A stretch of DNA of 64,000 bases, from the NCBI GenBank assembly GCA_023269615.1, contig JAHFSY010000004.1:1-64000 (forward strand), in the 5' to 3' direction. Below the pieces are notes generated by a model. That model was not told the DNA's origin and searched no databases. It worked only from the letters and a program-made list of their open reading frames with translations. This document shows, one piece after another, positions 16,789 through 45,110 of this stretch. The stretch comes from Verrucomicrobiota bacterium (GTDB lineage Bacteria; Verrucomicrobiota; Verrucomicrobiia; JABWAM01). Position numbers and translations under genes: made by a program. The first letter of the stretch is position 1; each line of letters opens with the position of its first letter.

Positions 16789-18453
16789 TCAGATTTTTTT
16801 CACGCCGAGTTCGAGGCTCACGATGCAGACGGAGTTCGCGATTCGTTCCTCGGGAGTTGCGCGTTGGTGGCTGCCATTGAAGACGAGGATCTCGTTCCAG
16901 CCCTCCTTGATTTGCGAGACTTCGAATTCGTAATTGAAGGCCCGGTGCTCGGGGAGGTGGTGGGTGTAGATGCCGGTGGGAAAGAGGAGTTTGTCGGTCG
17001 GCTTGGCGTCGAATTTTGGCCAGCAACCGTTGAAACTTGCCCCCAGGGCGGGAAGATTTGTTTTTTTCTCCACGACGAGCTGGAGGATGAGCCTGAGTTT
17101 TGACCCGGGCGGCTCGGCGCACATGGAAAGGCGGAAGGCGTGTTTCCATTCAGGCTCGATGATGCACGGAATCTGCTCGGCGTATTCGTAGAGTAGAAAC
17201 ATGTAGTAGCCGTGCCGCGAGGCGAGGGCATAATGCTTGGGCTTTCCGCGAAGGCTCCCGAGATCATGCAATCCGCGCAACGAGGAGTAATGGCTTTTGC
17301 GCCCGGGGGTGCCGAGATTGTGCGGGGCTTCATCGCTGCAGAAGAAGTTGAATTGCTCGATGCCATCCACGCCCATCGCGAGTTTGCCCGCTGCGTTGCC
17401 TCTTAGCAATTCGGGACTGGTTGAAAGGAGACGATAGTATTTTTTTCCGGATTTCGGGTCGCGACAGTGGAGCCAGTTGGGGGCATCTTCCACCACGCCA
17501 TAGATCGTGATGTCGTTTCCGAGTTCCTTGCGCAGTTCGTCATAGGGGACATCCCACGATGTCTGCCAGCCGTTGCTGAAGCCGACGAAATCGATGATGC
17601 CTTTTTTCACCATCGCGCGGATGTCGAGCCCGATGGCGCGCAACTGGCCGAGGCGGCACGGGATGCGGAGGCCGAGGGGATACGGCTTGCCGGTTTTTTT
17701 GGAGTGGGCCCGGGTCAGGCGTCGGATTTCGCCGTGCCACTCGGTGATCATGTCGGTCTGTTTCTGTGTGGCCGGGGCGTTGAGACAGAAAGCCTGGCGC
17801 ATCCAGTCGAGCTCCATCCCGTCAAAATCGTAGTCGTTCACCAGCTCCCTGGCCAGCAGGAGCATGTAATCGCGCACCTTCTTGAAGGCGTAGTTCAGGG
17901 ATTGTTGCATGGGCTGGATGCCGTCCTTCGGATTGATCTGTTGCCCACTGAGGCGATATCGCGGATCCCTTTGCGCGGCGCAATTCATGTAGCAGTCCGA
18001 CCAGTTGTTAGCGCCATGCATGTCGTTCATGCGGATGGAAGCCCACGGGGAAATGCCTCGCTTGCGGCAGCGCTTTGCAAGCTCGGCCATCCAGTCCACT
18101 CCCGCCTCGTACAAGTCGAGATAGCGGTTGTGAAACTTCACATCTCCATCGAGACGTTTCTCCAGCATTTCGGGCGTCCAGTCCTTGTCAAATGGAGGGT
18201 AGTATCCCCGGAGAAAATCGCGATCGCCCCGCTTGTAACCCGTAAGGATGTGGCGTGTGACCTTGCTGGGGTACCAGGGCACCTGGGCGTTGCCGTTGAT
18301 GAGAAAGGTGTCCACGCCGCTGTCGGCGAGCAGGTCCACGTACCGATGCATCACGGACGCCGTGTAGGGCGCGTTGCCCGGATTGTAGATGTCGGCGAAA
18401 AAGAGAAAGGTGCAGTCGCCGTTGAAAAGGTTGCGATGTTTTTTCAGCTTCAT
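16789..18453 (-). CDS. TIM-barrel glycoside-hydrolase-like protein
   Basis: A 554-aa protein from ATG 18453 (MKLKKHRNLFNGDCTFLFFADIYN). Features fit a GHL10-related (beta/alpha)8 enzyme: VDLLADSGVDTFLIN, WMAELAKRCRKRGISPWASIRMND, DYDFDGMELDWMRQAF (acidic residues at a strand end) and GIIDFVGFSNGWQ. The C-terminal 100 residues form a beta domain (LRLILQLVVEKKTNLPALG, HRAFNYEFEVSQIKEGWNEILVFNG). No signal peptide. It lies 34 bp downstream of the 1411-aa secreted protein gene, so it is the last gene of the regulator-pseudopilin-enzyme run. Substrate unknown. Confidence 0.72.
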   Translation of the reverse strand: MKLKKHRNLFNGDCTFLFFADIYNPGNAPYTASVMHRYVDLLADSGVDTFLINGNAQVPWYPSKVTRHILTGYKRGDRDFLRGYYPPFDKDWTPEMLEKRLDGDVKFHNRYLDLYEAGVDWMAELAKRCRKRGISPWASIRMNDMHGANNWSDCYMNCAAQRDPRYRLSGQQINPKDGIQPMQQSLNYAFKKVRDYMLLLARELVNDYDFDGMELDWMRQAFCLNAPATQKQTDMITEWHGEIRRLTRAHSKKTGKPYPLGLRIPCRLGQLRAIGLDIRAMVKKGIIDFVGFSNGWQTSWDVPYDELRKELGNDITIYGVVEDAPNWLHCRDPKSGKKYYRLLSTSPELLRGNAAGKLAMGVDGIEQFNFFCSDEAPHNLGTPGRKSHYSSLRGLHDLGSLRGKPKHYALASRHGYYMFLLYEYAEQIPCIIEPEWKHAFRLSMCAEPPGSKLRLILQLVVEKKTNLPALGASFNGCWPKFDAKPTDKLLFPTGIYTHHLPEHRAFNYEFEVSQIKEGWNEILVFNGSHQRATPEERIANSVCIVSLELGVKKI

Positions 18454-18487
18454 ACGGGTAATGGAGGATGACAGATGATCCGAAGGC

Positions 18488-21400
18488 CTACTTATACCCG
18501 AACCGGTCCTTGAGTGTGAACGCGAAGGGAGCAGAGGGTTTCGAAAGTTTGCCATCCTTGTCGGTGTAGAGGACGAACACGTAAAACTCAACGTCCGGGC
18601 GCAGGCCCTGGATCATCCGGCCGGATTCCGTCCAGCCCGTGTCCAACTGCAAGGCGCCGCGTCCGTCGGGGTAGGGGCTCACCCAGACGTCATATTTCGC
18701 CGCTCCGGGCACGAGATCGAAATGCACGTGGCAGCGGGTGCCATCGTATTGATGCAACGGATCCGTGACCTTCTGCACCTTTGTCGGGGTGCCCACGCCG
18801 GTTTTTTCGAATTCGGCGATGGGGTTGGTGAGCTCGGGCGCTCCCTTGGGTGCCGGCATGCGCAGCTTCGAGAGCCGCACCACGTCGTCGTCCTTGTCCT
18901 TCTCGTTCGCGTACTCCGCGTTCAGGTCACCCAACAGTACGTCATCCGGTTTGGCCTCCACGAGGTCGTTTCCGTAAACCAACTTGGGACGGCGTTCGAC
19001 CATGATCTTTTCCAACTTGAGCGGCAGGTCCACCACACCATCACCGCCATAGCCGCCCCACCAACTCGTGCCATATTCGCGGTAGCTGTCGTATGGGGCG
19101 CTCGAAGGCAGTTCGAATTGCAGATAACGCCAGCCATCGAAGCAGAACGCGCTCCAGGCGTGGATGTCGTCACAATTCCACTCCTCCTTGCTGCCCACGC
19201 TGATCCATTTTTCATTTTTGGCGTCGCGGAGGACATAAACGACGCGTCCCCAATCGCTCGCGGCATGGACCCACAAGCCGAGATGAGAAGCCTTGCCGGG
19301 GATTGTGATCGGACTTTTCGGCTCGAGCGTGGTGTAGAAAGGCATCACGCCGCGGTCCTTGTCCTGCTTTTCGAGGTGGACGGAGAGCGCCTTTCCGCCC
19401 TGGTCGCCCGGTGCGTCCACGGTTTTTCCGGTCATTTTTCCGGGAAAGCGTTCGATCTGGAACGGTTTGTTTTTCGTGTATTCTTCATCCCCCTTCTCCA
19501 CGATTTTCCATCCTTCCCCGAGGTTTCCAAGTTTCTCGATTTCCCGGGCCGGCTTGGAATCGGAGTGGTCGCTTTCGCCCAACGTGATCACGGGATCGGA
19601 CGTCAATCCCTCCAGGTACTGCGGAAAACGGTCCACGGTGAAGGTGACCACGCCTTTCTTTTCCCTGAGCGTCGTGGCGTTGTCATTTTGGTCGTAGATT
19701 TCCAGCGACCCGCCCGCCGGGACTTTCACGCTGACCGGGCGTGTCCCGCGGATGGTCCAGAGCACGTGGGCGAGTTTGCCGGTCTTGTGGTGTTTGAATT
19801 GCTCGCAATACACGGAGGTGCTGCCGGTCGGCACATACTTCATGAAGTTGGCGCGGTTGAGATGACGGGTGAGGGTGGCGACGCCGACATAGGCCAGCCT
19901 CGGCATCACCACGGGAAGACGATGGCACCATCCGGCGCCGTAGTGATTTTCGCCCCAGTAATTCGCGCAATCAAAAGGAGGGTTGGAGCTTTCGAAGCGG
20001 GTGACGCCGTAGCCCATGAGCGAGAGGAAGTTTCGCACGCCGATGTCCGCCTGTCCTTCATCTGCCGTGTCCACGTCTTTCGCGGAAATGCACGTGCCCT
20101 CGATCAGCACGAGATAGGGATCCTTCTTGTACTGCTTGATATCCTTCATGATCGGATAGAGACGGCTGAGGACGACCTGATTGACCTGTTGTTCGGGAAT
20201 GCGTTCGAAACATGGGAGGTCCAGCGCGCAGCCATCGATCAGTTCGCGGCACTCGGGGCTCAGGCGCAGCAACACCGCGGTGTTCATGGGATCTCCATAA
20301 GGAAGCAGGAGCTTGAGATTCGGCCATTCCTTGTGGATGGCGCGGGCGCCCAGGAGGAATTTCGCGACCATGTCCTCGTAGGCCTTTTGTTCGTCCGCGT
20401 TGAGTTTGTATTCCTCGCCGTAATGGGTGGGCCAGATGCCGGTGGTGATGATCCCCAATTGCGGCTCGGCGAAGAAGGGAACGTAGGTGGGGCGGCTGAT
20501 GGGGCCTGGAAAGTTCTCCTGTTTTTTCATGACGTCAATCAAAGCCCTGGCCGTTTCCTCGGGTTTCGTCGGATCGAATTTGGGCGAGTCCGGATAACCC
20601 GTGTAAAATGCGTTGTAGTACATCACTCCGCCCGCGAAGGCGGACTCGGCGATAAAATGATGTTTCACCGCGAGAGCCTCAATCTCCTTCTGCTTCTTCA
20701 GCTCGTCCAGTTGCTTGGCGTCCTCGAGCCGCTTGATTTCCCGGGGTGACAGCGAATAGTTGGCCGTCGAGGTTTCCGCGCCCGCGGCGGCCATGAACGG
20801 AATTTCCCTGTCGGCCGTCGGCGTGGTGTGTCCTCCGCCCCACGGCCAATAGCCGAAGATCGAACCGTGGCCGGATTCCCAGAGGTCATGCTCGCGCGTG
20901 TCGGGATGCAACATGGCGAAATTCCGGCGATAGACCGCCGATTCATCCCCCGCTTTCAACTCGACCGTCAACTCATGCAAGCCAAACTCCTTCGGCTTGA
21001 GCGTCACGGGCACCCTGACCGGCGAGCCGTTCGCCGGCAGCGAAACCTCCTGATCCTGCTTCGTGCTGTCCCTGCCATCGTAACTCTTCGTGGTCACGAC
21101 GAGTTTTGCCTTTGTGTCGGCGCCGGTCATGTTGCGCAACTGGATCGAGTAGGAAGGCTGGGCGGGAGCCGTCCAGACATGCCCGTACTGATCGGGCTCA
21201 AGGTCCACCTCCACGCCGGCCCGCTCCAGGGTCATGGCGTAAATCTGGACGGAACTCGGCAGGCCCGCCCCGTGCGCGCTGTATTCCAGCGGGTCGGGAT
21301 AGGCGCGATAAAACTGGACCTCCTTCGTAATCTCCATCCCGATCCGGTTGAGGTCGGTGAACCACGAGAAACTGTCCGGCGCCAGCGGGATGACCACATG

Positions 21401-22723
21401 ATAGAGGTTCGCGTTCTTGCCGCCCGCGAGCTTCACCGGCACAGACCGGGTCCCCGGAACATCGCCCTTCACCGTCGGCGCCATGCCGGGAAGATTGAAT
21501 GCGGGACCCTCCTTCGCGGGTTGGGATTTGCCTCCCGACACAGCGGGGACTGTCCCCGCAAAATTGATCGGATGGCCGGCGTCGGGGCGGAAGAACTGGG
21601 CGGAGACCACCGGCACGCCGTTTTCTCGTCCATCCGAAACGGCGAGCAGGTGAAGCGCCTTGTAGCGGCCTTTCGGAATGTACATCGCGATCCGGGCCGG
21701 GTCCATCCGGTCGGCGGCAACCCAGCGCCCCCCGAAGGTGCCGGAGTTGGCCAGGAAGTAGCCCGGCAACGCCCCAAATCGGGTCCAGCTGGTTCCCACG
21801 TCGATGTGATCCTCTCCCCGGGCGGAAGTACCCGGATACTGGAATGGCACGCCATCGACGGGCACTCCCGGGAGGGACGCGCGATCCACCTTCTCCCCGT
21901 TGAGCGTTGCGGAGTTGAGATGCCCCTCGATGGACAGAGGCTCGAAACGCGTGGAGGCAGGTGGGAGCGGACGCATCTGCACCGAAGCGAGTTCGGCTCC
22001 GGCGGGAAAAGTCATTCTCACGAGCCCGGACGGATCCATGTCAGCGACCAAGGGCACCTCGAACACAAAGCGTCCGTTGACCCACATCCGCGCGCGCCCT
22101 TTTTCCACGGCGCAGCGAAGAGTGAGGAGCGATTCCTCGATTTTCGGCGAGGCGGCGATCTGGGCTTCGATCGCCCTGCGCATCTCCTCCGACCAGGTCA
22201 GGCTTCGATCGCCCACGGCCTCGAAGTACAAGAACCCTGACAAAGGTGGCGACGGTGGTTTGACACCCTCCACCGACGCCGAGTAACTGACATATTTTGC
22301 GCCGCTCGAGGCGCTGACGGAAAAGCTGATCGATTGCGGGGTCTTGTCCGGGCGTTCCCCGCACGCCATCTGAACCTGGGCATAAGACGAGCCGCCCGGC
22401 GCGGGTTTGAGACGGAACGTGATGAGACACTCGCACGGAGCGGACTGCCGGTTGACGCTTTCGAGATTCAATCCGCCCGGCGACGAGAGGGTCGCCTGGC
22501 CTGGCCCACCTCCGCCAACCGGTTGTGCGGGTGTGAGCTTCCAGTCGGCCGCGTTGCCCAGCACCTCGGCCAGCTTTGAGGCATCCGCCGGCGCGTCGGC
22601 TCCCCGGAGGAGACCCATCATGGAAAAAATCAACACCATGAAAACAGCCGCCATCTCCCGCCTCAAAAACCCGCCGTAAGCACCATCCCACGGGTGTCGT
22701 TTTCTTCCGATATCCAGGTTCAT
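18488..22723 (-). CDS. Giant secreted multidomain protein, probable carbohydrate-active
   Basis: 1411 aa from ATG 22723. The signal region is FLRREMAAVFMVLIFSMMGLLRGADA; starting at 22723 keeps the RR before the hydrophobic core, which the internal ATG at 22654 would lose. The N-terminal part is beta-rich (LamG/jelly-roll-like with WVNGRFVFEVPL). The centre (about 620-980) looks like a (beta/alpha)8 domain: REHDLWESGHGSIFGYWPWGG, FFAEPQLGIITTGIWPTHYGEEY, NLKLLLPYGDP, PYLVLIEGTC. A further beta domain follows (SHLGLWVHAASDWGRVVYVLRD), and the C-terminal 90 residues form a fibronectin-III-like module (CHVHFDLVPGAAKYDVWVSPYPDGR). I do not recognise the family. It lies 66 bp after the pseudopilin gene in the same direction. 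Confidence 0.78.
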   Translation of the reverse strand: MNLDIGRKRHPWDGAYGGFLRREMAAVFMVLIFSMMGLLRGADAPADASKLAEVLGNAADWKLTPAQPVGGGGPGQATLSSPGGLNLESVNRQSAPCECLITFRLKPAPGGSSYAQVQMACGERPDKTPQSISFSVSASSGAKYVSYSASVEGVKPPSPPLSGFLYFEAVGDRSLTWSEEMRRAIEAQIAASPKIEESLLTLRCAVEKGRARMWVNGRFVFEVPLVADMDPSGLVRMTFPAGAELASVQMRPLPPASTRFEPLSIEGHLNSATLNGEKVDRASLPGVPVDGVPFQYPGTSARGEDHIDVGTSWTRFGALPGYFLANSGTFGGRWVAADRMDPARIAMYIPKGRYKALHLLAVSDGRENGVPVVSAQFFRPDAGHPINFAGTVPAVSGGKSQPAKEGPAFNLPGMAPTVKGDVPGTRSVPVKLAGGKNANLYHVVIPLAPDSFSWFTDLNRIGMEITKEVQFYRAYPDPLEYSAHGAGLPSSVQIYAMTLERAGVEVDLEPDQYGHVWTAPAQPSYSIQLRNMTGADTKAKLVVTTKSYDGRDSTKQDQEVSLPANGSPVRVPVTLKPKEFGLHELTVELKAGDESAVYRRNFAMLHPDTREHDLWESGHGSIFGYWPWGGGHTTPTADREIPFMAAAGAETSTANYSLSPREIKRLEDAKQLDELKKQKEIEALAVKHHFIAESAFAGGVMYYNAFYTGYPDSPKFDPTKPEETARALIDVMKKQENFPGPISRPTYVPFFAEPQLGIITTGIWPTHYGEEYKLNADEQKAYEDMVAKFLLGARAIHKEWPNLKLLLPYGDPMNTAVLLRLSPECRELIDGCALDLPCFERIPEQQVNQVVLSRLYPIMKDIKQYKKDPYLVLIEGTCISAKDVDTADEGQADIGVRNFLSLMGYGVTRFESSNPPFDCANYWGENHYGAGWCHRLPVVMPRLAYVGVATLTRHLNRANFMKYVPTGSTSVYCEQFKHHKTGKLAHVLWTIRGTRPVSVKVPAGGSLEIYDQNDNATTLREKKGVVTFTVDRFPQYLEGLTSDPVITLGESDHSDSKPAREIEKLGNLGEGWKIVEKGDEEYTKNKPFQIERFPGKMTGKTVDAPGDQGGKALSVHLEKQDKDRGVMPFYTTLEPKSPITIPGKASHLGLWVHAASDWGRVVYVLRDAKNEKWISVGSKEEWNCDDIHAWSAFCFDGWRYLQFELPSSAPYDSYREYGTSWWGGYGGDGVVDLPLKLEKIMVERRPKLVYGNDLVEAKPDDVLLGDLNAEYANEKDKDDDVVRLSKLRMPAPKGAPELTNPIAEFEKTGVGTPTKVQKVTDPLHQYDGTRCHVHFDLVPGAAKYDVWVSPYPDGRGALQLDTGWTESGRMIQGLRPDVEFYVFVLYTDKDGKLSKPSAPFAFTLKDRFGYK

Positions 22724-22788
22724 GGGTAGAGCGGTCGTATCACGTGATGAGATCATTCATAAACCGTACCACGACCCGAATTCCACAC

Positions 22789-23538
22789 TCACTTGTTATC
22801 CACGCCCCAGACGGAAAAGGCGCCAACCCCGCACCAGAGGCCATAGACGGCATAGGGCGCGACCGATGGGTCGGTTGACGGGGCCCACCAGTCCCACGTG
22901 GAAGCTTTGAGAAACTCGCCGTGTCCATCCACAAAAACGAAGTTGAGGCCCCTTCCTTTATGCCGCGGATATTCATAGACCCCCGATCCCCACGCGCCAC
23001 TGCAGGTCGCGTCGAAAGCAGTGGGGGTCTGGGGATACCAATAGTAACATTCGGCAATGAGGAAGGTCTTTTCCGGAAACTTCGCCTCGTCCAGGCTATG
23101 CATTTCCTGTGGGGTTGCCACAGTATAATAGTACACGAAAGCCGAATTCGCGCCGTAGGGATAACTTCCGTTCTGTCCGCCCTTCATGCCTGGACAAGCC
23201 TTGCTCATTTCCTTCGGGGCGGTGTAGCCGATCAGAGTGGAGCTGCGCAGATAGTTTGTCACAAGGTCCCACCAGGTTCCATTTGAAGGGGGCAGGACGT
23301 CGCGAGAACCGGTTCCATTGATCCAGCCGCCGTTATCCTGTCCAATCATCAGGGTGGTGATGCCCACCTGTCTCAGGTTCGACATGCAGGCGACCCGGTT
23401 CGCGCTCTCACGCGCATTTTTCAACGCGGGCAGAAGCAACGCGGTGAGGATCGAAATGATGGCAAGCACCACCAACAATTCGACGAGCGTGAATGCGCGT
23501 GAAACACGCGGAGCAGGGCTCAATGGTTTAAGGGTCAT
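22789..23538 (-). CDS. Type II-like pseudopilin (GspG/H-type N-terminus), copy 1
   Basis: A 249-aa protein. A 15-residue basic leader precedes [24 protein letters not shown], the class III signal of pseudopilins with Glu at mature position 5. The residue before the cut is Ala (SRA-FTLVE), not the usual Gly. The globular part shares [32 protein letters not shown] and [15 protein letters not shown] with the two other copies here (37102 and 43168). Such short-pilin proteins are numerous in Lentisphaerota and Verrucomicrobiota. It is preceded by a GntR-type regulator gene (72 bp) and followed by the giant secreted protein. Role: probably cell-surface fibre or secretion-linked substrate binding (inference). 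Confidence 0.9.
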
Positions 23539-23589
23539 GGACGGAAAAAAGTGAAGCTTTGAGCAAATTTCCAGCAGCCAGGCCTCCGG

Positions 23590-23630
23590 AACAAGTTTAA
23601 TGATCTGGACTTATTTTTCACCCACAGAAA
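23590..23630 (-). promoter_or_regulatory. Conserved upstream motif of pseudopilin copy 1
   Basis: On the minus strand: TTTCTGTGGG, an A-rich stretch, CCAGATCATTAAACTTGTT, ending 52 nt before the ATG at 23538. The same arrangement precedes the pseudopilin genes at 37926 and 43944. It overlaps the last codons of the regulator gene. Spacing conservation suggests a promoter or operator. Confidence 0.6.
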
Positions 23631-24690
23631 CCGGCGGCTTTCTGGAGGGCACTGTCTGCGCAACCATTTCAATCGGGATCCGTTTGCGAATGGGAGGCAG
23701 GGCGCCTTGTTCAAAATAATGGACCGCCGCCTGGCAGATGACCTTCGCAAACTTTTCCACCGGAAAAGGGTAGTAGACCGGCATCGGCACCAGGCGAATG
23801 GCCTGCAGCGTGGTATTCATGGCCACGACTTCGACCTGTTCCGGCACATCCAGCCCCCGCTTCATCAAGGCGGTCATCAACAAACCGGCCGGGACCGGAT
23901 AAAGGGCGATCAGACCGTGACGACCCTTGATGGATGCCGCGAAACGCTGGACGGCCAGGTTTTGTTCGCAAAGCCCGACTGGGATACGGACAACATCCCC
24001 GCGAAGCGACCGGGAAGCTTCCACGCAGATGCGCTGAAACAGTCTGGCCGTCGATCGCAGGCTCCCCTCCTTGACGATCAGGCTGATCCTGAAGAAGCCC
24101 CGTCGCACCAGCATGTGGGTGGCATGCCGAAGGGCCGACAGGATCTCGATTGAGATGAATGGCATTTGGAATCCTGAAAGGCGCGGTCTGATGACCAGAA
24201 CACTTTTCTTGAAAGTTGAGAACAATCCCAGAAATTGATCCGGCACGGCTCCCAGCAGAAACATTTCCCCGGGGTGTTCGCCCCTGCGATGGATGGCGCG
24301 CATCCGCGCCGCATCACACCTTTCAAAAGTGAGACGGATTCCCTGGGGCTCCAGTCTTTCTGAAATTGCCGCGCGGATTTCCACCAGGGCCGAGGCATCC
24401 GGATAATCCCTCCCGTAATAAAGCCAGCGCACCGCGCGGGACCGCTGCCACCCTTTTGCCAGGACCGGTGTGTGCGCAAGTTCGATTCCCTTGCGGGGTC
24501 GGACGCGCAGCAGGCCTTTGCGCTTCAGAATCTTGATCGCTCCTTTCAACGTGTCGCGGCTGACACCGAGTTGCGAACTCCAATCGCGGGTGTTCGGGAT
24601 CGGGCGGAGAACCTCCCCGCGGGCGATGCAGCCCCGGATATGATCGGCCAATTGCTCGGCCCTCGAACGGATGAAACTTGCTTGCTCCAT
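23611..24690 (-). CDS. GntR/LacI-hybrid transcriptional regulator, paralogue 1
   Basis: A 359-aa regulator from ATG 24690. Residues 1-70 form a GntR-type winged helix (AEQLADHIRGCIARGEVLRPIPNTRDWSSQLGVSRDTLKGAIKILKRKGLLRVRPRKGIEL). The rest is a periplasmic-binding-protein-like sensor of LacI type (MLVRRGFFRISLIVKEG, GLIALYPVPAGLLMTALMKRGLDVPEQVEVVAMN). The protein at 44049 is a close paralogue along its full length. It is immediately upstream of pseudopilin copy 1, so it probably controls this locus in response to a sugar. An upstream 26-codon extension of the frame is ignored because the paralogue starts at the equivalent Met. Confidence 0.9.
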   Translation of the reverse strand: MEQASFIRSRAEQLADHIRGCIARGEVLRPIPNTRDWSSQLGVSRDTLKGAIKILKRKGLLRVRPRKGIELAHTPVLAKGWQRSRAVRWLYYGRDYPDASALVEIRAAISERLEPQGIRLTFERCDAARMRAIHRRGEHPGEMFLLGAVPDQFLGLFSTFKKSVLVIRPRLSGFQMPFISIEILSALRHATHMLVRRGFFRISLIVKEGSLRSTARLFQRICVEASRSLRGDVVRIPVGLCEQNLAVQRFAASIKGRHGLIALYPVPAGLLMTALMKRGLDVPEQVEVVAMNTTLQAIRLVPMPVYYPFPVEKFAKVICQAAVHYFEQGALPPIRKRIPIEMVAQTVPSRKPPVSVGEK

Positions 24691-37101: not shown

Positions 37102-37926
37102 TTATTCACCCATCATGTCGTAGGTGCCGGTGTTGGGCCAGAGCACCGCCTTTCCATAGGTGAACCCGGTTACCTGGTCCCAACTCGCCACCCCATACCG
37201 TTTCAAGAACTCGCCATGCCCGTCAACAAAGATGCAATTCAAACCATTCCCCACTTTCATGACTTCGGGAGTGGCGTTGGGGGATGCGGGATGGGGTGCA
37301 TGAATGTAAGTACCACTGCTCCAGGAACCGTCAATGGTATAAGCCCCCAGGTATTGTGGATCGAGGGTGTATACATTGGGATAACAACAGTCCGCGATCA
37401 GAAAAATCCGGGTGGTGTTCACCACTTCATTCAGCGAGTGCATTGGAACCGCCCCCCCCACTACGCCGGTAAAAAAGCCGTTGACTCCAAAAGGCGATTT
37501 GTTGTCGACCGTCTGGCTGAGGACAGTGTCGTAATAGGATTTTCTCCGTCCCGGGCAACCTGTCCCCTCCGCCGTGACCATCTTGTCTTCTCCCGCTGGA
37601 GTGACGCCACCGCCCAGATAGGGATGGACCGCGATGAGCCAGTTGGTAACGATGGTGTTGCCGGCGGCGGAATCGAGTGGCGCATTGATGCCATTGAGCC
37701 ATCCGCTGTTTTCGTTTCCGAGCATTTGAAGCGCCAGGGAAACCTGCTTCATCTGCTGCATGCAGGCCACACGCTTGGCGGTCAACTTGGTCCGCCCCAG
37801 CGCGGGCAGCAGCAAGGCTGCAAGGATCGAGATGATGGCGATCACCACGAGCAGCTCGACCAGGGTGAATCCCGCCACGACCCGTCGGCCAGCGTTTGAC
37901 GATGAAATGAATGGCTTAAGGCTCAT
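37102..37926 (-). CDS. Type II-like pseudopilin, copy 2
   Basis: A 274-aa protein from ATG 37926 (MSLKPF, similar to MTLKPL of copy 1). The class III signal is [26 protein letters not shown] with the canonical Gly at -1. The globular part has [34 protein letters not shown] and [14 protein letters not shown]. Its upstream DNA carries the conserved motif at 37978-38018 but no adjacent regulator gene. The GH43/32-like gene follows on the same strand. It is more distant in sequence from copies 1 and 3 in the middle region. Confidence 0.88.
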
Positions 37927-37977
37927 TGACTGGGCTGGGAAAAATTCACCCAAACCCTAAGCCATCAGACCTGCCGT

Positions 37978-38018
37978 CACAAGTTTGATGATCTGGTTCT
38001 TTTTTGTGCCCACAGAAA
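37978..38018 (-). promoter_or_regulatory. Conserved upstream motif of pseudopilin copy 2
   Basis: On the minus strand: TTTCTGTGGG, A-rich stretch, CCAGATCATCAAACTTGTG; it ends 52 nt before ATG 37926, the same distance as at copy 1. Here no regulator gene overlaps it, so its conservation is not explained by protein coding. Confidence 0.6.
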
Positions 38019-38070: not shown

Positions 38071-38784
38071 TCAGGCAAACTCGATCCGGATTTCGTCGAA
38101 CATGACGCAGCCCTCGGGCAGGCGCGAACGATCCACCTCGTATTCGCCGCCCGCATACAGGATGTGCGGGTCACCCTGGATGGGTTTGAGCGGCACCACA
38201 TCGAGCGGAGCCAGGACAAAGATCATATTGAGATTCACGTCGCGCAACAGATCGGCAATCGGGGCCTTGCCGTACTTGTCGCGGCGGTCGTGACGGGATC
38301 CCAGGTCCCGCCATTGTCTTTGATCCGGCACAAGATGCAGCGTTTGCTCCGACCAATCGGGGGTGATCTTCAAGGGTTGGCCGGCAAGTTCCTGGTTGAC
38401 CACGTTCATCGGCCGTTCCGCAGTCGGCACATTGCCCTGCAGGTGCAGGAGCAATTCCGCTCCCCGGAGTTTGACATCGCCTTTGAGGCGGACCGTCATT
38501 TTCGCGTTCGTCAGGTTCGTGGGAAATCCACCTTTCACGTAGGGATTTGGCCCGCCGGCATCGAGGGTCGCCTTCGAAAAATCCGGCCCGTGACGGGTGT
38601 GCAGCGCAAAAAGAATGTGCAGATAACCGCCATCGGGCGGCTCGATGTGGTTGGCATCCACCCACCATGGGCCGCGCGACACCGCGACGCTGTCGTGGAT
38701 TTCCACAGGCGTCACCCCAATGGCTCCGTCCCAACCGATCCAGCCGCAGGGACCGTTGTCGAAGGTTTCGATAAATGTTTTCAT
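38071..38784 (-). CDS. Jelly-roll/carbohydrate-binding-like protein
   Basis: A 237-aa protein starting MKTFIETFDNGPCGWIGWDGA. The composition is a beta sandwich (KMTVRLKGDVKLRGAELLLHLQGN, PDWSEQTLHLVPDQRQWRDLGSR, GCVMFDEIRIEF), typical of carbohydrate-binding jelly-rolls found beside glycosidases; the last strands DEIRIEF fit a CBM terminus. No signal peptide. It lies 12 bp after the PL22-like gene, so it is co-transcribed and may bind or act on the same sugar product. Function otherwise unknown. Confidence 0.65.
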   Translation of the reverse strand: MKTFIETFDNGPCGWIGWDGAIGVTPVEIHDSVAVSRGPWWVDANHIEPPDGGYLHILFALHTRHGPDFSKATLDAGGPNPYVKGGFPTNLTNAKMTVRLKGDVKLRGAELLLHLQGNVPTAERPMNVVNQELAGQPLKITPDWSEQTLHLVPDQRQWRDLGSRHDRRDKYGKAPIADLLRDVNLNMIFVLAPLDVVPLKPIQGDPHILYAGGEYEVDRSRLPEGCVMFDEIRIEFA

Positions 38785-38796
38785 TGGTCAATAAAT

Positions 38797-39972
38797 TTAC
38801 CCAAGGCTCTTCAAAAACTCCGGGGTGATCTCCGCGGCGAACACATGGGGCGCCCCGTAGCCGTCTGAATTGAAGATCACATGGCGGTTGTCCGTGGTGA
38901 TGTAAGGATGACAATGAGACACCTGGTTGCCGCCGCCGGTGGCGCGCGTGTTGCTCACCAGGACGCGGTACTTGCCGCTGCGAAAATTACCCATCACCAG
39001 CGCCATGGGTTTGATGACGTTCTCTTTGTCGTAAATGCAGCCTTCATAGGAATCCATCACGAAATAGGTGCCGCATCGGCTGGCGGCGATGTGGTTGCCG
39101 CGATGTTCGGGGCACGGGAACGGCGTCGGCTTCGCATCGCCCGGCCCGGCGGTCATCACCGTGGTGTTCGGATGCAAGGGATCGCATTCCCAGGTGTCCA
39201 CGTTCCAGTGGGTGGTGAAGCAAACCCGGTTCGTTCCGGGGATGAAGCACTGGTGACCCAGCCCGGCAGTGTGTGGCCGACCGACGGGTACAGGAACCTC
39301 TTTTCCGGATTCGACATCCACCAGGAACGTGACGGCGCCGTAATCACCCAGCAGCTTCTCCACCGCGCCGTCGGCGGAGAGTTTCGAGCCGTGGTTTCTC
39401 ATGATCAGGACGTACCTACCCGTGACCGGTTCCCAGATCGGATGCGGGTTCACGATCTCGGGATGCTCGTAGAAGATTTCCCGACGGCCGCTCTGCAGGT
39501 CGTACCGCATCACGACGGGACGCGGGCCCGGCAGGTAGAGACCGAACACCATGTACCGGTGATCCGGCGAGACCGATCCTCCTCCGCGTGACACGATGGG
39601 CTCGTCATCAACCAGGATTAACTTCGACTCATAGGTCATCAGCGACACACGTTTCAGTTCGTTCTTGTTCGTCCAATAGTAAACGAACTCGCCGAATGCA
39701 TTGTTGCAGGGGCGGATGAATGAGGAGACATCATCCGCCACCAGCGCGAGCTGGAACCGGTCCAGGTCGGCTACAAGAAGCATTGCTGTCGGCGTGAAGC
39801 TTGGGTCAACGAACCGCTCGATCGCAACCCGTCGTCCGTTGGGTGAACAGTAGGGCTGCTCGCCGTAGATGTTGATGTTGTTGCTCGAGCCGCACGTGAG
39901 CTGGATGACCCAGCCTTTGCCGGCCGGGTCGCGGTACCGATGACATGTTTCACTGCCGAATCGGATGCTCAT
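38797..39972 (-). CDS. Oligogalacturonate lyase-like propeller protein (PL22-like)
   Basis: A 391-aa protein from ATG 39972. It begins SIRFGSETCHRYRDPAGKGWVIQLT and continues with propeller blades typical of oligogalacturonate lyases: NNINIYGEQPYCSPNGRRVAIERF, GSVSPDHRYMVFGLYLPG, GHQCFIPGTNRVCFTTHW, and the His-rich CHPYITTDNRHVIFNSDGYG near the C-terminus, where PL22 enzymes hold a metal-binding His. PL22 enzymes cleave oligogalacturonides from pectin in the cytoplasm; here no signal peptide is seen, in agreement. It sits between a CocE-type hydrolase gene (17 bp upstream) and the jelly-roll gene. The chemistry is inferred from family resemblance. Confidence 0.75.
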   Translation of the reverse strand: MSIRFGSETCHRYRDPAGKGWVIQLTCGSSNNINIYGEQPYCSPNGRRVAIERFVDPSFTPTAMLLVADLDRFQLALVADDVSSFIRPCNNAFGEFVYYWTNKNELKRVSLMTYESKLILVDDEPIVSRGGGSVSPDHRYMVFGLYLPGPRPVVMRYDLQSGRREIFYEHPEIVNPHPIWEPVTGRYVLIMRNHGSKLSADGAVEKLLGDYGAVTFLVDVESGKEVPVPVGRPHTAGLGHQCFIPGTNRVCFTTHWNVDTWECDPLHPNTTVMTAGPGDAKPTPFPCPEHRGNHIAASRCGTYFVMDSYEGCIYDKENVIKPMALVMGNFRSGKYRVLVSNTRATGGGNQVSHCHPYITTDNRHVIFNSDGYGAPHVFAAEITPEFLKSLG

Positions 39973-39988
39973 GTGGGGGGGATGTGAA

Positions 39989-42022
39989 TTACAGGAGATT
40001 GCGCGGGATGGATTCGGTCCACCGTTTCTCGAAATGCAGAGCATTGTTGATCCGGACATGAAGATCAATCGTTACATGAAAATGGGTGGCGGTACTCCGG
40101 ATGATGGCTTCGGAACTTCCCTCCACCACCTCCTGCGGACGGTGGACCCGGCTCACGTGAAGGCCGCGCGTGGTCACGTGTGCCGGATCGGCGGGATCCA
40201 CCTCGGTCAGAAGCGTGCATTCACGGTTGATCACCGTGCGCTCGTCCACGCGATAATCCACCTTGTTGCGGATGTGAACGCGTTTGCGTCCCGTCAACAC
40301 GTCCTCGGTGACCTCCCACACGGGCGGCGCGGTGGCGGAGGAAACCGGCGGGATGTTGACGGAGGAGGGAAGAAATGTCGGCGGCGTGGCGCTGCCTTTT
40401 GCCGGCACCACGGGAAGGATGAGGCGTGACATGAATTTTCCGCCGTGATGGACGCGGTTCGTGCCGGGTTCCGGTGTGGGCCAGACGTTCGGCCAGTCCG
40501 CGCTGGCAACATTCAGGCGGATGCGATGGCCTTTGCGAAATTTCCAGCCCGTGCAGTCGATCAGGATGTTGAGATCGGCCACTTCACCCGGCTCGAGCGG
40601 TTCCGGATCACTCATGGATTTTCGACGCGAGGTGTTCAGCATTCCCTTCGCAACCAGGTATGATGTGCCGTCCGACGCGACTTCGCACAGGTTGGCGGTG
40701 AAGCCCATGACGCGGGCGCTGGAGGCGACATGCAGCACGGCACGCGCGCAGCCGATGATGGAGATCTCCTCGGTGAGCGGCTCCGAAGTGTACACAAGGG
40801 AAAAGGCTTCGTCGGGACGCTGGTCGCCGGGAAGCCCGAACGGGAGGCCGCATGACCAGAGGCCGCCGGTGACGCCGACCGTGGGGTTGTAGTCAAACGT
40901 GTCGGCCCCTTCGCTTTTCGTCATGTTTCCAAGCGTCCCATTTCCGCCAAGATAAAGAACCTTCTCCGTGGCGCCCGGGGGCGGCCATTGGGTTTCGGAA
41001 CGCCATGCGCCGGGCGCTTCGACCCGGTCCACGATCGGTTTCTGGTATTCCTGCATGTACACGGTGACGGGCGGTTCGTCCATGATGCCGGTGTCCTTGC
41101 CTTTGCACCAGTGATCGAGCCAGCGGATGACCTCGCGCAGGTGATCAATGCGAGGACCGGGCAGGGCGATGTCAGGGAACGAATGGTCCCAGGGTCCCAG
41201 GAGCACTTTCTTGGGCACTTTTAACTGGTGGAAAAGACGGAGCGGCGGATTGTGATAACCGTCGCGCCAGCCGTTGATCAGGAACGCGGCGCACTTGATT
41301 TGGTCGGAAGTATAGCGCACGGAGGCGCGACGCCAGTAGTCGTCGTCGGTCTGGTGCTGGAGCCATTTGAGGAGGTAGGGCTCGTTATGCTTGAGGTGGT
41401 GTTCCCACAATTTTGCCCACTCCCCGCCCGACCATTCGGCCACGGGCGGCATGGCGTTGAAGACGATCATGAAATTTCCGTAATAGCAGAGGTCGTAATA
41501 GAGACGGAGCAGTCCGCCGCGGTAATGACATTCGTCCTTGTAACGGTCATCACTGAAAGCGAAGGGAATGATGCTCGTGAGATGGGGCGGAGCGTGCGCG
41601 GCAACCTGCAACGAGGAGAAGCCGGCGTACGAGATGCCATACATGTTCACGTGCCCCGTGCACCAGGGCTGCTGCGCAATCCATTCGATCATGTCGTATC
41701 CGTCCTCCTGCTCCAGCTGCATGTATTCGTCGGTGTTCACACCCTCCGAGCCGCCGCTGCCCCGGACGTCCACGCGGGCGATGATGTAGCCGTGGCGTGG
41801 AAAATAGGAATAATGGCGCGCGCGTCCCGCATTCACCTCGTCCTTGTGATAGGGCGAGTATTCGACAACGACCGGAAATTTCGCCCCGGGTTTGCGGTCG
41901 TCCTCGTCGCGATCAGGCATGTAGAGATCGGCGGCGAGACGGGTGCCGTCGCGCGTGGGGATGCGAATGTTTTTGAGAAGGCGGACGCCCTCGATGGGGT
42001 GGAGCGTGATGGGATCAGTCAT
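39989..42022 (-). CDS. CocE/NonD-type alpha/beta hydrolase (peptidase S15-like)
   Basis: A 677-aa protein. The N-terminal hydrolase domain has the S15 pattern: NIRIPTRDGTRLAADLYMP, YSYFPRHGYIIARVDVRGSGGSEG, and the nucleophile elbow GISYAGF. LGPWDHSF supplies the expected His region. The C-terminal jelly-roll (GPLTEEISIIGCARAVLHVASSARVMGFTANLCEV, WKFRKGHRIRLNVASADWPN) completes the CocE layout. The last 130 residues are an extra C-terminal extension. Enzymes of this type cleave esters or X-Pro peptides; in this pectin-like locus an esterase role on acylated sugars is possible. Cytoplasmic by lack of signal peptide. Confidence 0.85.
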   Translation of the reverse strand: MTDPITLHPIEGVRLLKNIRIPTRDGTRLAADLYMPDRDEDDRKPGAKFPVVVEYSPYHKDEVNAGRARHYSYFPRHGYIIARVDVRGSGGSEGVNTDEYMQLEQEDGYDMIEWIAQQPWCTGHVNMYGISYAGFSSLQVAAHAPPHLTSIIPFAFSDDRYKDECHYRGGLLRLYYDLCYYGNFMIVFNAMPPVAEWSGGEWAKLWEHHLKHNEPYLLKWLQHQTDDDYWRRASVRYTSDQIKCAAFLINGWRDGYHNPPLRLFHQLKVPKKVLLGPWDHSFPDIALPGPRIDHLREVIRWLDHWCKGKDTGIMDEPPVTVYMQEYQKPIVDRVEAPGAWRSETQWPPPGATEKVLYLGGNGTLGNMTKSEGADTFDYNPTVGVTGGLWSCGLPFGLPGDQRPDEAFSLVYTSEPLTEEISIIGCARAVLHVASSARVMGFTANLCEVASDGTSYLVAKGMLNTSRRKSMSDPEPLEPGEVADLNILIDCTGWKFRKGHRIRLNVASADWPNVWPTPEPGTNRVHHGGKFMSRLILPVVPAKGSATPPTFLPSSVNIPPVSSATAPPVWEVTEDVLTGRKRVHIRNKVDYRVDERTVINRECTLLTEVDPADPAHVTTRGLHVSRVHRPQEVVEGSSEAIIRSTATHFHVTIDLHVRINNALHFEKRWTESIPRNLL

Positions 42023-42070
42023 GGGACAGGATGAGACGGGGATTGGAAGTTGAACGGATCCTGAAACATT

Positions 42071-43132
42071 CTACAACCCAAGAACCTTCGGGATGTCCGC
42101 GACGGCGATCATGGGTTCCTCGCCTTCAAACGCCATCACGGCCGACGCCGGATCCTTGAATCCGTGTCCGCTGAGGACACAGACCACCGTTTCATCGGAC
42201 TTTACAACGCCCTCGCGAACCGCGGCGACGAGCCCAGCCACCGAGACCGCCCCCGCAGGCTCAACCCATAGCCCTTCCTTTGTCAGCAACTCGCGCTGCC
42301 AGTGCCACGCATCCTCGTCCGAAACCAGGAATCCCGATCCTTTCGTGGCGCGTGCCACCTCGATGGCATCATGTCCGTCATAAATCTCCGGCGCCACGAG
42401 CCCGCTGATGCGGGTGATGGTGTTCAGCGTGCGGGCGCGATTGAGTCCCTCGCGGAGCGGGGTCACGACGGTGTCATTCAGTTCCGGCTGGACAAGATGG
42501 ACGCGCGGGCAGGATTTGGTTTCCAAAAACCCGCGGGCCACTCCCACATACAATCCACACGCGCCGCCCGGCACAAACACGTGCGATGGCTGCATTTGTT
42601 CCGCGATTTCATAACTCAATGTTTTCACCCCGCACATCCCCTGCGGCGAGGAGGAAAAGGCGGAAACGACAGTGGCTGTCCCCAACCGCTTCGCGGTGGT
42701 TTCCAGCAGGAGCATGATCTCCTCGGTGGACTCGCGCGCGACACAAAAATCCTTCACGCGATACACTTTGGCGCCATGGGCGCGCATCTGGAGAAATTTG
42801 CCGGAGGGGGTCCGCTCGCAGACGAAGAGATGGCAGGCGATCCCGTAACGCGCCGCATACGCGGCAAGGGAGGAACCGTTGTTGCCTGAGGAATGCCCGA
42901 TCACGACCCGTGCGCCGGCCTGGCGCAGCAGCGAAAGTTCCAAGGCAACGAAGCGGTCCTTGTACGAGCCCGTGGGATTCTGGTGCTCGCATTTGAAGAA
43001 AAGCTTTTTGAGCCCGAGCTGCCGCCCGAGCGCACGGCTTTCAATGAGCGGCGTTCCGCCCTCCCCAAGCGTGCAATGGAATTCCTCCCGGACAGGGGGC
43101 AGGCGTGATGCGTAACGGGCAAGGATGCTCAT
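42071..43132 (-). CDS. Threonine synthase-like PLP enzyme
   Basis: A 353-aa beta-family PLP enzyme with the lysine motif NPTGSYKDRF (Lys58), the phosphate loop HSSGNNGSSLAAYAARYG, and SGHGFKDPAS near the C-terminus, all in the threonine synthase pattern. It would convert O-phosphohomoserine to threonine, or act on a related phospho-substrate (cysteate synthase is a close family). The placement between a CocE-type hydrolase gene and a pseudopilin gene within a carbohydrate locus is unexpected for an amino-acid biosynthesis gene. Confidence 0.87.
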   Translation of the reverse strand: MSILARYASRLPPVREEFHCTLGEGGTPLIESRALGRQLGLKKLFFKCEHQNPTGSYKDRFVALELSLLRQAGARVVIGHSSGNNGSSLAAYAARYGIACHLFVCERTPSGKFLQMRAHGAKVYRVKDFCVARESTEEIMLLLETTAKRLGTATVVSAFSSSPQGMCGVKTLSYEIAEQMQPSHVFVPGGACGLYVGVARGFLETKSCPRVHLVQPELNDTVVTPLREGLNRARTLNTITRISGLVAPEIYDGHDAIEVARATKGSGFLVSDEDAWHWQRELLTKEGLWVEPAGAVSVAGLVAAVREGVVKSDETVVCVLSGHGFKDPASAVMAFEGEEPMIAVADIPKVLGL

Positions 43133-43167: not shown

Positions 43168-43944
43168 TCATTCAGCCCAGATTCCATAGCCGGGGGCATA
43201 ACTCCATTCCGTGGACGCGGGAGGATTGTACCATGCGCCCGACCTGAGAAATTCACCGTGTCCATCCACGAACACGAAATTCAAACCCCGGCCCCGGTGC
43301 CGTCCCACGACATAGTAGCCTCCGCCCGAATACGGGGGATTGCTGGACACGGTGATGTCAAAACTGCTGCCAACATTGGGATCCGGATAGTAACAGTCCG
43401 CGACAAGGAAGATGCGCGTCGGGTTTTTGACTTCATTGAATGAGTGGCAGGGGGGATAGGAGAGTCCCACACCCCCGGTGAACAAGCTGTTGACGCCGTA
43501 ACTGTAGCTGATATCGCCCTCTTTTTTGCCGGGGCACCCCTTGTTGCCGACACCGGCAACAAAATCACAATAGGAGTCCACCGCCGCGTCACGCAGATAA
43601 TTGGTGATGGAATACCCCCACCAGATGGGCACGGGGGTGTAGGCTCCCACCTGGGTGCCGTTGATCCAGCCGTTGTTCTCCGAGGCCATGATCTGCAGCG
43701 TCAGGCTGAGCTGCCGCTCATTGTGCATGCAGGCCACCTGGCGGGCGGAATCACGCGCATTTCTCAATGAGGGCAGCAACAGGGCCGCAAGGATCGAGAT
43801 GATGGCCACGACAACAAGAAGCTCGACGAGGGTGAACGACTGTGGAGAACGCCGGCCGGGCCGACGGGAGTCGTCTGGCCATGCAACGGATGCGACAGGC
43901 GGAACACCTGTTTTCCAATCTGGCACACCCGGGCCAGGGATCAT
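43168..43944 (-). CDS. Type II-like pseudopilin, copy 3
   Basis: A 258-aa protein from ATG 43944 (a GTG at 43962 is an alternative). A long 36-residue leader ends in SPQS, followed by [24 protein letters not shown]; Ser rather than Gly is at -1. Shared globular blocks are RQVACMHNERQ, NGWINGT, GCPGKKEG, CYYPDPN and [15 protein letters not shown]. The regulator gene (44049-45110) is directly upstream with the conserved motif in between, and the threonine synthase-like gene follows 36 bp after the stop. Confidence 0.88.
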   Translation of the reverse strand: MIPGPGVPDWKTGVPPVASVAWPDDSRRPGRRSPQSFTLVELLVVVAIISILAALLLPSLRNARDSARQVACMHNERQLSLTLQIMASENNGWINGTQVGAYTPVPIWWGYSITNYLRDAAVDSYCDFVAGVGNKGCPGKKEGDISYSYGVNSLFTGGVGLSYPPCHSFNEVKNPTRIFLVADCYYPDPNVGSSFDITVSSNPPYSGGGYYVVGRHRGRGLNFVFVDGHGEFLRSGAWYNPPASTEWSYAPGYGIWAE

Positions 43945-43990
43945 TGGCTTGAAAAACAACACACAAACACTTTAGCAGGCAGACTTGGTC

Positions 43991-44032
43991 CAACAAGATC
44001 GGGAATCTGGATTTTTTTTTAACCCACAGAAA
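43991..44032 (-). promoter_or_regulatory. Conserved upstream motif of pseudopilin copy 3
   Basis: On the minus strand: TTTCTGTGGG, a run of A, CCAGATTCCCGATCTTGTTG; 47 nt before ATG 43944. It is downstream of the regulator stop (44049), so wholly intergenic here. Confidence 0.6.
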
Positions 44033-44048: not shown

Positions 44049-45110
44049 TCAGATGAACCCGCGTTGATGGCCGTCCCCGGCAATCATTTCGATGGGAATC
44101 ATCTTGCGAATGGGGGGAAGGGAGCCCTGTTCAAAATAGTGAATCACGGCCTGGCAGACGGCTTTCGCAAACTTTTTCACAGGATAGGGATAGTAGACCG
44201 GGAGCGGCACCACGCGTATGGCCTGCAGGGTGGTGCTCATCGCAACGACTTCGACACGTTCCGGCACATCCAACCCTCGCTTCATCAAGGCGGTCATCAA
44301 CAAACCGGCCTGGACCGGGTAGAGGGCGATCAATGCGTGGCGGCCCTTGATGGTCGCCGCGAAACGCTGTGCGGCCAGGTTTTGTTCGTGAAGCTCGCCG
44401 GGAATGCGGATGACGTCTCCCCGAACCGGCTGGAAAGATTCAGTGCAAATCCGCTGAAATTGTCCGGTCAGCAGCTGGCGGCTTCCTTCCCTGACAACCA
44501 GGCTGATCCTGGAAAAACCGCGCCGCGCCAGCATGTGGGTTGCGTGACGGATGGCCGGCAAAACATCCACTGAAATAAACGGGAGCTGGACTCCTGGGAA
44601 TGGCGGTCTGACAAGCAGGGCGCTCGCCTTGAAATTGGAGAACAAGCCTTGAAATTGATCCGGCAGGGCTCCAAGCAGAAACATTTCACCGGGGTGTTCC
44701 CCCCTCTGATGAATGGCGCGCAAGCGCGCCGCATCACATTTTTCAAAAACAAGACGGATTCCATGGGATTCCAATCCTTCGGAAATCGCCGCCTGCATTT
44801 CCACGAGGGCCGAAATATCCGGATAATCCCTTCCATAATAAACCCAGCGTACCATGCGCGATCGCGGTGAACCCGCAGCCGCGCCCGGTGTGTGTAAAAG
44901 CTCGATCCCCTTGCGAGGACGGACGCGCAACAACCCCTTGCGCTTCAGAATCTTGATCGCCGTCTTCAACGTGTTGCGGCCAACGCCAAGCTGCGAACTC
45001 CAGTCGCGTGTGTTCGGGATCGGGCGGAGGATCTCCCCGCGCGACATGCAGCCCTGAAGATGATCCGCCAATTGTTCGGCTTTCGAACAGTTGAAATTTG
45101 CCTTTTCCAT
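44049..45110 (-). CDS. GntR/LacI-hybrid transcriptional regulator, paralogue 2
   Basis: A 353-aa regulator very similar to the one at 23611-24690 over its whole length: N-terminal winged helix (SKAEQLADHLQGCMSRGEILRPIPNTRDWSSQLGVGRNTLKTAIKILKRKGLLRVRPRKGIEL) and LacI-like sensor (SRISLVVREG, HALIALYPVQAGLLMTALMKRGLDVPERVEVVAMSTT). The start codon is 4 bp downstream of the spermidine-synthase-fusion stop, so it may be translated from the same transcript. Directly upstream of pseudopilin copy 3, as for paralogue 1 and copy 1. Confidence 0.9.
   Translation of the reverse strand: MEKANFNCSKAEQLADHLQGCMSRGEILRPIPNTRDWSSQLGVGRNTLKTAIKILKRKGLLRVRPRKGIELLHTPGAAAGSPRSRMVRWVYYGRDYPDISALVEMQAAISEGLESHGIRLVFEKCDAARLRAIHQRGEHPGEMFLLGALPDQFQGLFSNFKASALLVRPPFPGVQLPFISVDVLPAIRHATHMLARRGFSRISLVVREGSRQLLTGQFQRICTESFQPVRGDVIRIPGELHEQNLAAQRFAATIKGRHALIALYPVQAGLLMTALMKRGLDVPERVEVVAMSTTLQAIRVVPLPVYYPYPVKKFAKAVCQAVIHYFEQGSLPPIRKMIPIEMIAGDGHQRGFI

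Follow-up and report, generated by a model that had tools for sequence, protein, structure and literature searches.

In Bacillus subtilis, AraR joins a GntR-type HTH to a LacI/GalR-like ligand domain and binds palindromic operators at the promoters of carbohydrate genes (PMC4218819). AraR is a repressor and recognises a compact palindrome of 16 bp, At(T/A)tGTaCGTAcaa(A/T)T (PMC4218819). GntR regulators of the YtrA subfamily bind long palindromes with conserved bases far from the centre (PMC4494728). In Verrucomicrobiota, Verruconatronum alginivorum upregulates a pseudopilin on alginate and has a genome with 67 homologues of one pulG-like pseudopilin (PMC13274419).

Here, we describe a block shared by three pseudopilin genes in a 64,000-nt window (the whole stretch of DNA that was analysed) from a Verrucomicrobiota bacterium. 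The linked regulators resemble AraR in the fusion of a GntR HTH with a LacI/GalR-like domain and in a palindromic, putative operator at the promoter. They differ from it in their wide dyad (TG-N15-CA), in its place ahead of the -35 box and in having a pseudopilin as target. The long palindrome with conserved bases distant from its centre is reminiscent of YtrA; however, YtrA has a short C-terminal domain and ABC transporter targets, whereas the regulators here carry a LacI-like domain and adjoin pilins. The many paralogous copies per genome are shared with the expanded pulG-like pseudopilins of Verrucomicrobiota, for which the text consulted describes no dedicated regulator-operator pairs (PMC13274419).

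Results

Three copies of the block in the window

The first-pass annotation had noticed a motif common to the upstream regions of all three pseudopilin genes. A fixed-spacing pattern search for TTTCTGTGGG-N12-CCAGAT-N7-CTTGT returned three perfect matches with identical spacing, at 23591-23630, 37979-38018 and 43993-44032, all on the minus strand and within 1-2 bases of the positions first assigned; 0 copies are expected in the window from 100 dinucleotide shuffles. The end of CTTGT precedes the start codon by 52, 52 and 48 nt at loci 1, 2 and 3, respectively, and all three pseudopilins bear the N_methyl prepilin signature (Pfam, NCBIfam). The surroundings are also as annotated. At locus 1, the block overlaps the 3′ end of the GntR regulator 1 gene (23611-24690). 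At the other two loci it lies outside the genes upstream, beginning 17 nt past the stop of regulator 3 at locus 3 and sitting between the pilin and an unrelated ORF (38071-38784, no family match) at locus 2. The features assigned to the three loci are:

23602..23628, minus strand: locus 1 dyad, putative operator TCTGTGGGTGAAAAATAAGTCCAGATC, axis near 23615 (alignment columns 8-34, symmetry, covariation)
23589..23594, minus strand: locus 1 -35 box TTGTTC (sigma70 hexamer scoring)
23566..23571, minus strand: locus 1 -10 box GAAATT, weak, 17-bp spacer (profile, hexamer scoring)
22789..23538, minus strand: pseudopilin 1, 249 aa (Pfam N_methyl, NCBIfam prepilin signature)
23611..24690, minus strand: regulator 1, GntR HTH and LacI-like ligand domain; start probably 24690 (24768 also possible for the ORF)
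37990..38016, minus strand: locus 2 dyad TCTGTGGGCACAAAAAAGAACCAGATC, no regulator gene adjoining (pattern, profile, alignment)
37977..37982, minus strand: locus 2 -35 box TTGTGA (sigma70 hexamer scoring)
37954..37959, minus strand: locus 2 -10 box TAGGGT, 17-bp spacer (profile, hexamer scoring)
37102..37926, minus strand: pseudopilin 2, 274 aa (Pfam N_methyl, NCBIfam prepilin signature)
44004..44030, minus strand: locus 3 dyad TCTGTGGGTTAAAAAAAAATCCAGATT (pattern, profile, alignment, symmetry and covariation)
43991..43996, minus strand: locus 3 -35 box TTGTTG (sigma70 hexamer scoring)
43969..43974, minus strand: locus 3 -10 box TAAAGT, 16-bp spacer (AAAGTG with 17) (hexamer scoring)
43168..43944, minus strand: pseudopilin 3, 258 aa (Pfam N_methyl, NCBIfam prepilin signature)
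44049..45110, minus strand: regulator 3, same subfamily as regulator 1 (74-75% identical)

The block is not scattered at random through the genome, an outcome that the first-pass annotation had named as fatal to its proposal. The whole 4.48-Mb genome holds no copy beyond the three window sites at up to two mismatches, and a single extra match at three mismatches (C129:10138) has no pilin beside it. Matches to the exact pattern at three mismatches in 188 relatives were without the A-tract and were taken as chance; two matches on Bacteroidia contigs were close to the chance-expected number. A known RNA element or riboswitch was rejected, as no Rfam match falls at the three sites; a tRNA is the sole Rfam match in the window.

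Two minus-strand ORFs downstream of pilin 1, at 16789-18591 (600 aa) and 18488-22756 (1422 aa), have no Pfam or NCBIfam match and are possibly co-transcribed with it. The minus-strand genes downstream of pilin 3 (38797-43132) encode a PLP-dependent enzyme, an X-Pro dipeptidyl-peptidase-like protein (S15) and a weak match to an oligogalacturonate-lyase/TolB-propeller; no plain glycoside hydrolase was seen among them.

Shared ancestry explains some of the likeness between loci 1 and 3, not that of locus 2. The ends of the regulator 1 and 3 genes are 82% identical in DNA, and their proteins 74-75% identical, so the likeness of these two loci alone is weak proof. The same figures would suit a functionless residue of recent duplication, which we nevertheless hold to be highly improbable: the gene upstream of locus 2 is unrelated, and the block is shared there all the same; the DNA from the block to the coding region has diverged among the loci; and the layout is kept both in another genus and where the paired regulators have no more than 36-46% identity. 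The three window pilin proteins share a mere 36-48% pairwise identity.

A wider element upstream of eleven pseudopilin genes

The genome encodes 80 pseudopilins by N_methyl matches. Scoring of pilin upstream regions with the three window sites gave weaker but suggestive relatives, and reading by eye pointed to a common layout. A profile built from nine non-window sites ranked the window sites 1-3 over both strands, with scores of 24.2, 19.7 and 19.5, the next match scoring 4.4; the C115 site scored poorly in a leave-one-out profile. Since the nine sites had been picked by eye, the search was redone blind. Expectation maximization (EM) was run on seven non-window pilin upstream regions chosen solely by a nearby homologue of the window GntR regulator. 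A single gapless motif emerged, placed alike in every one of the seven, with a score of 247.6 against 186-193 for shuffles at width 40, and 369 against 265-289 at width 70. The three best matches of this motif in the window are the three sites.

A model of 11 sites, comprising the three window loci and eight further pseudopilin genes of this genome, found just those 11 at E ≤10 among the 150 of 589 first-look candidates that were scored, each upstream of a pseudopilin. These are the model's own training set, so the scores carry no weight as evidence; what counts is that no further site came up. The window block is the local form of a wider element, in which a dyad precedes a sigma70-like promoter whose boxes are 17 bp apart. 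The remaining 69 of the 80 pseudopilins are without it, so the element is not a general signal of FTLVELL genes. Counts of inverted 4-mers in 44 pilin upstream regions were uninformative, because the half-site letters differ between groups.

The pilin at C88:6999 (L107) is preceded by TTGTAA-17-GATATT with CAGA 9 nt upstream, and has no clear outer half-site; its contig holds no regulator of the GntR/LacI-like subfamily. It was excluded from the 11 sites, having similar -35 and -10 boxes without a clear dyad and regulator.

The dyad and its covariation with the regulator

The alignment of 11 sites has invariant columns 10, 12-13 (TG), 29-30 (CA), 42 (T), 44 (G) and 66 (A). The dyad spans columns 8-34 with its axis at column 21, and takes the form of a wide TG-N15-CA with an AT-rich middle. 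About this axis, 62% of tested position pairs are complementary, compared with 39% for the next best axis. In loci 1-3 the dyad was first read as N17 (TCTG...CAGA), and the gapless alignment to the remaining sites led to N15 instead. The dyad is centred near -56, with half-sites ~17 bp apart, and always ends upstream of the -35 box.

An UP element formed by the A-tract, with the flanking letters incidental and no regulator bound, is very improbable. Loci 1-3 and C1 do have such a tract ahead of the -35 box; however, the middle of the dyad is a T-run in C70 and CATAAT in C76, whereas every one of the 11 sites keeps TG...CA, and an UP element leaves unexplained both the dyad and its covariation with the regulator.

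Half-site identity tracks the identity of the regulator DNA-binding domains (Mantel r 0.77, P<1e-4; r 0.62, P 0.0035 without near-duplicates). The linker, -35 box and spacer do not covary with this domain (P 0.08-0.11 for all pairs, 0.33-0.47 without near-duplicates), and the -10 box gives r 0.34 and P 0.015 for all pairs, and P 0.18 without near-duplicates. Among these nine related pairs selection and joint inheritance are separable only in part, and joint inheritance would be expected to mark the spacer too. The evidence supports the reading of TTTCTGTGGG...CCAGAT as a dyad and the putative operator of the linked GntR-type regulator.

Like GntR-family operators, the dyad is palindromic by its symmetry, and it covaries with the HTH in the Mantel comparison. 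It has TG-N15-CA instead of the short-centre consensus NyGTNxACNy of the FadR and HutC types, and it departs from the compact form of an ara box (16 bp, GT near the centre) in that TG and CA stand 15 bp apart. At the recognition-helix position matching AraR R41, regulators 1, 3, C68 and C115 have Arg, with G at column 14; Ser or Tyr occurs where column 14 is T or A. This pairing would fit the known Arg-G contact, with too few pairs for a claim.

The promoter

The match to sigma70 hexamers is best of all offsets at column 42 with a spacer of 17, where it averages 6.55/12 (overall mean 3.15, sd 0.86). CTTGT is therefore the -35 region. The first-pass annotation had proposed a promoter or a GntR operator as alternatives; the evidence favours both, as halves of a single element, the dyad covarying with the regulator and CTTGT belonging to the promoter. 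The spacing of the boxes lies within the 16-18 bp of sigma70-type promoters, and the predicted leader is ~17-21 nt long. As in an ordinary sigma70 promoter, TTGNNN is followed after 17 bp by an A/T-rich -10 box ending in T; the differences are the weak hexamers in the window and the dyad, which is always at a fixed distance upstream. In the window the -10 boxes match poorly, and at locus 3 a 16-bp spacer gives the better hexamer score (7/12, against 4/12 for 17 bp).

The same annotation had also raised a pilin-specific sigma factor, which would read the whole block, and the fixed spacing of all elements and their restriction to pilin genes would agree with it. The hexamers are sigma70-like, including TTGTCA-17-GATAAT in a related genus, the upstream letters vary among pilins together with the neighbouring regulator, and 69 of 80 pilins are without the block. 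We regard such a factor as scarcely credible, and the combined operator and sigma70-type promoter is the reading that we retain.

The linked regulators

In the linked regulators, a GntR HTH is joined to a ligand domain that is LacI-like but divergent. The N-terminal GntR winged-helix domain (PF00392) scores above cut-off in regulators 1, 3, C1, C70 and C115. The C-terminal LacI/GalR-type domain (PF13377) does so in regulators 1, 3, C1 and C68, and falls below it in C70, C76 and C115; the profile of the ligand domain matches CcpA effector domains. All nine regulators of the subfamily in the genome adjoin a pilin, save that of C125, which shares a 7.5-kb contig with three pilins. The C120 and C125 regulators are cut by contig ends. 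At C120 and G002:C443, the outer half-site of the dyad holds the regulator's own start codon, which suggests autoregulation.

Besides the nine GntR-type regulators, about nine of LacI type adjoin pilins in this genome. The second set, with a LacI-type HTH in all six tested, is found at C15, C33, C9, C51, C98, C109, C91, C130 and C28 (e.g. L012, L117, L114, L116, L115 and L108). These regulators end 28-185 nt before a same-strand pseudopilin, measured from the end of the ligand domain to the N_methyl match, and 16 of the 20 Peripla_BP_3 proteins of the genome have a pilin no more than 1.5 kb away (P about 3e-16). At L117:4614-6410 (G000:C33), a LacI-type regulator and a pseudopilin occupy one continuous 599-aa frame, which may represent a fusion, a lost stop codon or internal starts. 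Another shared upstream motif, approximately GTCAAGATTGTCCTGATTTTTGTCAAAAC, precedes pilins C28:75969, C28:76918, C15:21037 and perhaps C29:9357, and TTCTGTGGGATG is also found upstream of both C28 pilins. Since the GTCAAGATTGTCCTGATTTTTGTCAAAAC-like motif is distinct, other pilin groups may own separate operators.

Spread of the pairing

In G002, a genome of the same family and another genus, a site at E 5.6e-7 lies between a divergently oriented regulator of the subfamily and a pilin. It reads TTCATCTGACCTAAATATTAGATCAGA, followed by TTGTCA 9 nt past its CAGA and, after 17 nt, GATAAT. Two weaker matches in G002 (E 0.15 and 0.18) also precede pilins, one with a regulator C-terminus upstream. 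Close regulator homologues at L121 (G004) and L122 (G003) have no directly adjacent pilin. A simple pattern search found no pilin within 1.5 kb of distant regulator homologues from other families (E about 1e-20 to 1e-30). With no pilin near the distant homologues and none adjoining in G003 and G004, the pairing seems limited to few genera.

Discussion

We consider it very likely that the block combines a sigma70 promoter with an operator of the linked regulator placed upstream of it, probably for activation. A regulator dimer would occupy the wide dyad near -56, just upstream of the -35 box. From CTTGT onwards, a weak sigma70-type promoter (-35 TTGNNN, 16-17 bp, -10) would start transcription ~17-21 nt before the start codon. 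The LacI-like domain would sense a ligand, probably a sugar to judge from its domain family, and the bound dimer would probably aid RNA polymerase at a poor promoter. Such ligand-dependent help could tie the production of a pilin to the presence of its substrate. Where the module is arranged divergently, the site touches the regulator's own start codon, and binding there probably represses the regulator too.

The same operator and promoter could instead serve repression in the manner of AraR, the unliganded regulator keeping the pilin off until the ligand frees it. AraR, which likewise combines GntR and LacI domains, is a repressor that arabinose releases (PMC4218819), and the dyad over the regulator's start codon at C120 and G002:C443 fits repression of the regulator gene. 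At the pilin, however, the dyad centred near -56 always stops short of the -35 box, and the weak window promoters fit a need for help. Repression of the pilin is thus possible, if rather unlikely. We lean towards activation on two grounds, the lack of any overlap between dyad and -35 box and the poor quality of the window promoters; on position, the regulator is probably an activator.

Lacking a regulator in cis, locus 2 is probably under the control of one in trans. The regulators and sites of loci 1 and 3 are closely alike, and locus 2 has a site without a regulator; the three pilins therefore probably belong to a single mini-regulon with cross-control.

Each part is of a known kind. What sets the system apart from the AraR, FadR and HutC patterns is the wide TG-N15-CA dyad, its pseudopilin targets, a fixed place ahead of the -35 box, and a series of paralogous pairs whose half-sites have diverged. 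We found no such pilin regulon in the open-access papers searched.

We tentatively speculate that sugar-sensor-like regulators were duplicated together with pseudopilins, so that each pair has the same promoter geometry, its own operator and private, substrate-specific control; the idea is plausible, though it may well prove wrong. If true, this would be a pilin-based counterpart of polysaccharide-utilisation loci with insulated regulators. The co-divergence of half-sites and DNA-binding domains at constant promoter geometry offers a compact natural data set on the insulation of paralogue regulators. For the most part, expanded pseudopilin families lack an explanation; a dedicated regulator whose operator can be read gives a handle on when the pilins are made, and the ligand of the LacI-like domain one on what they may act upon.
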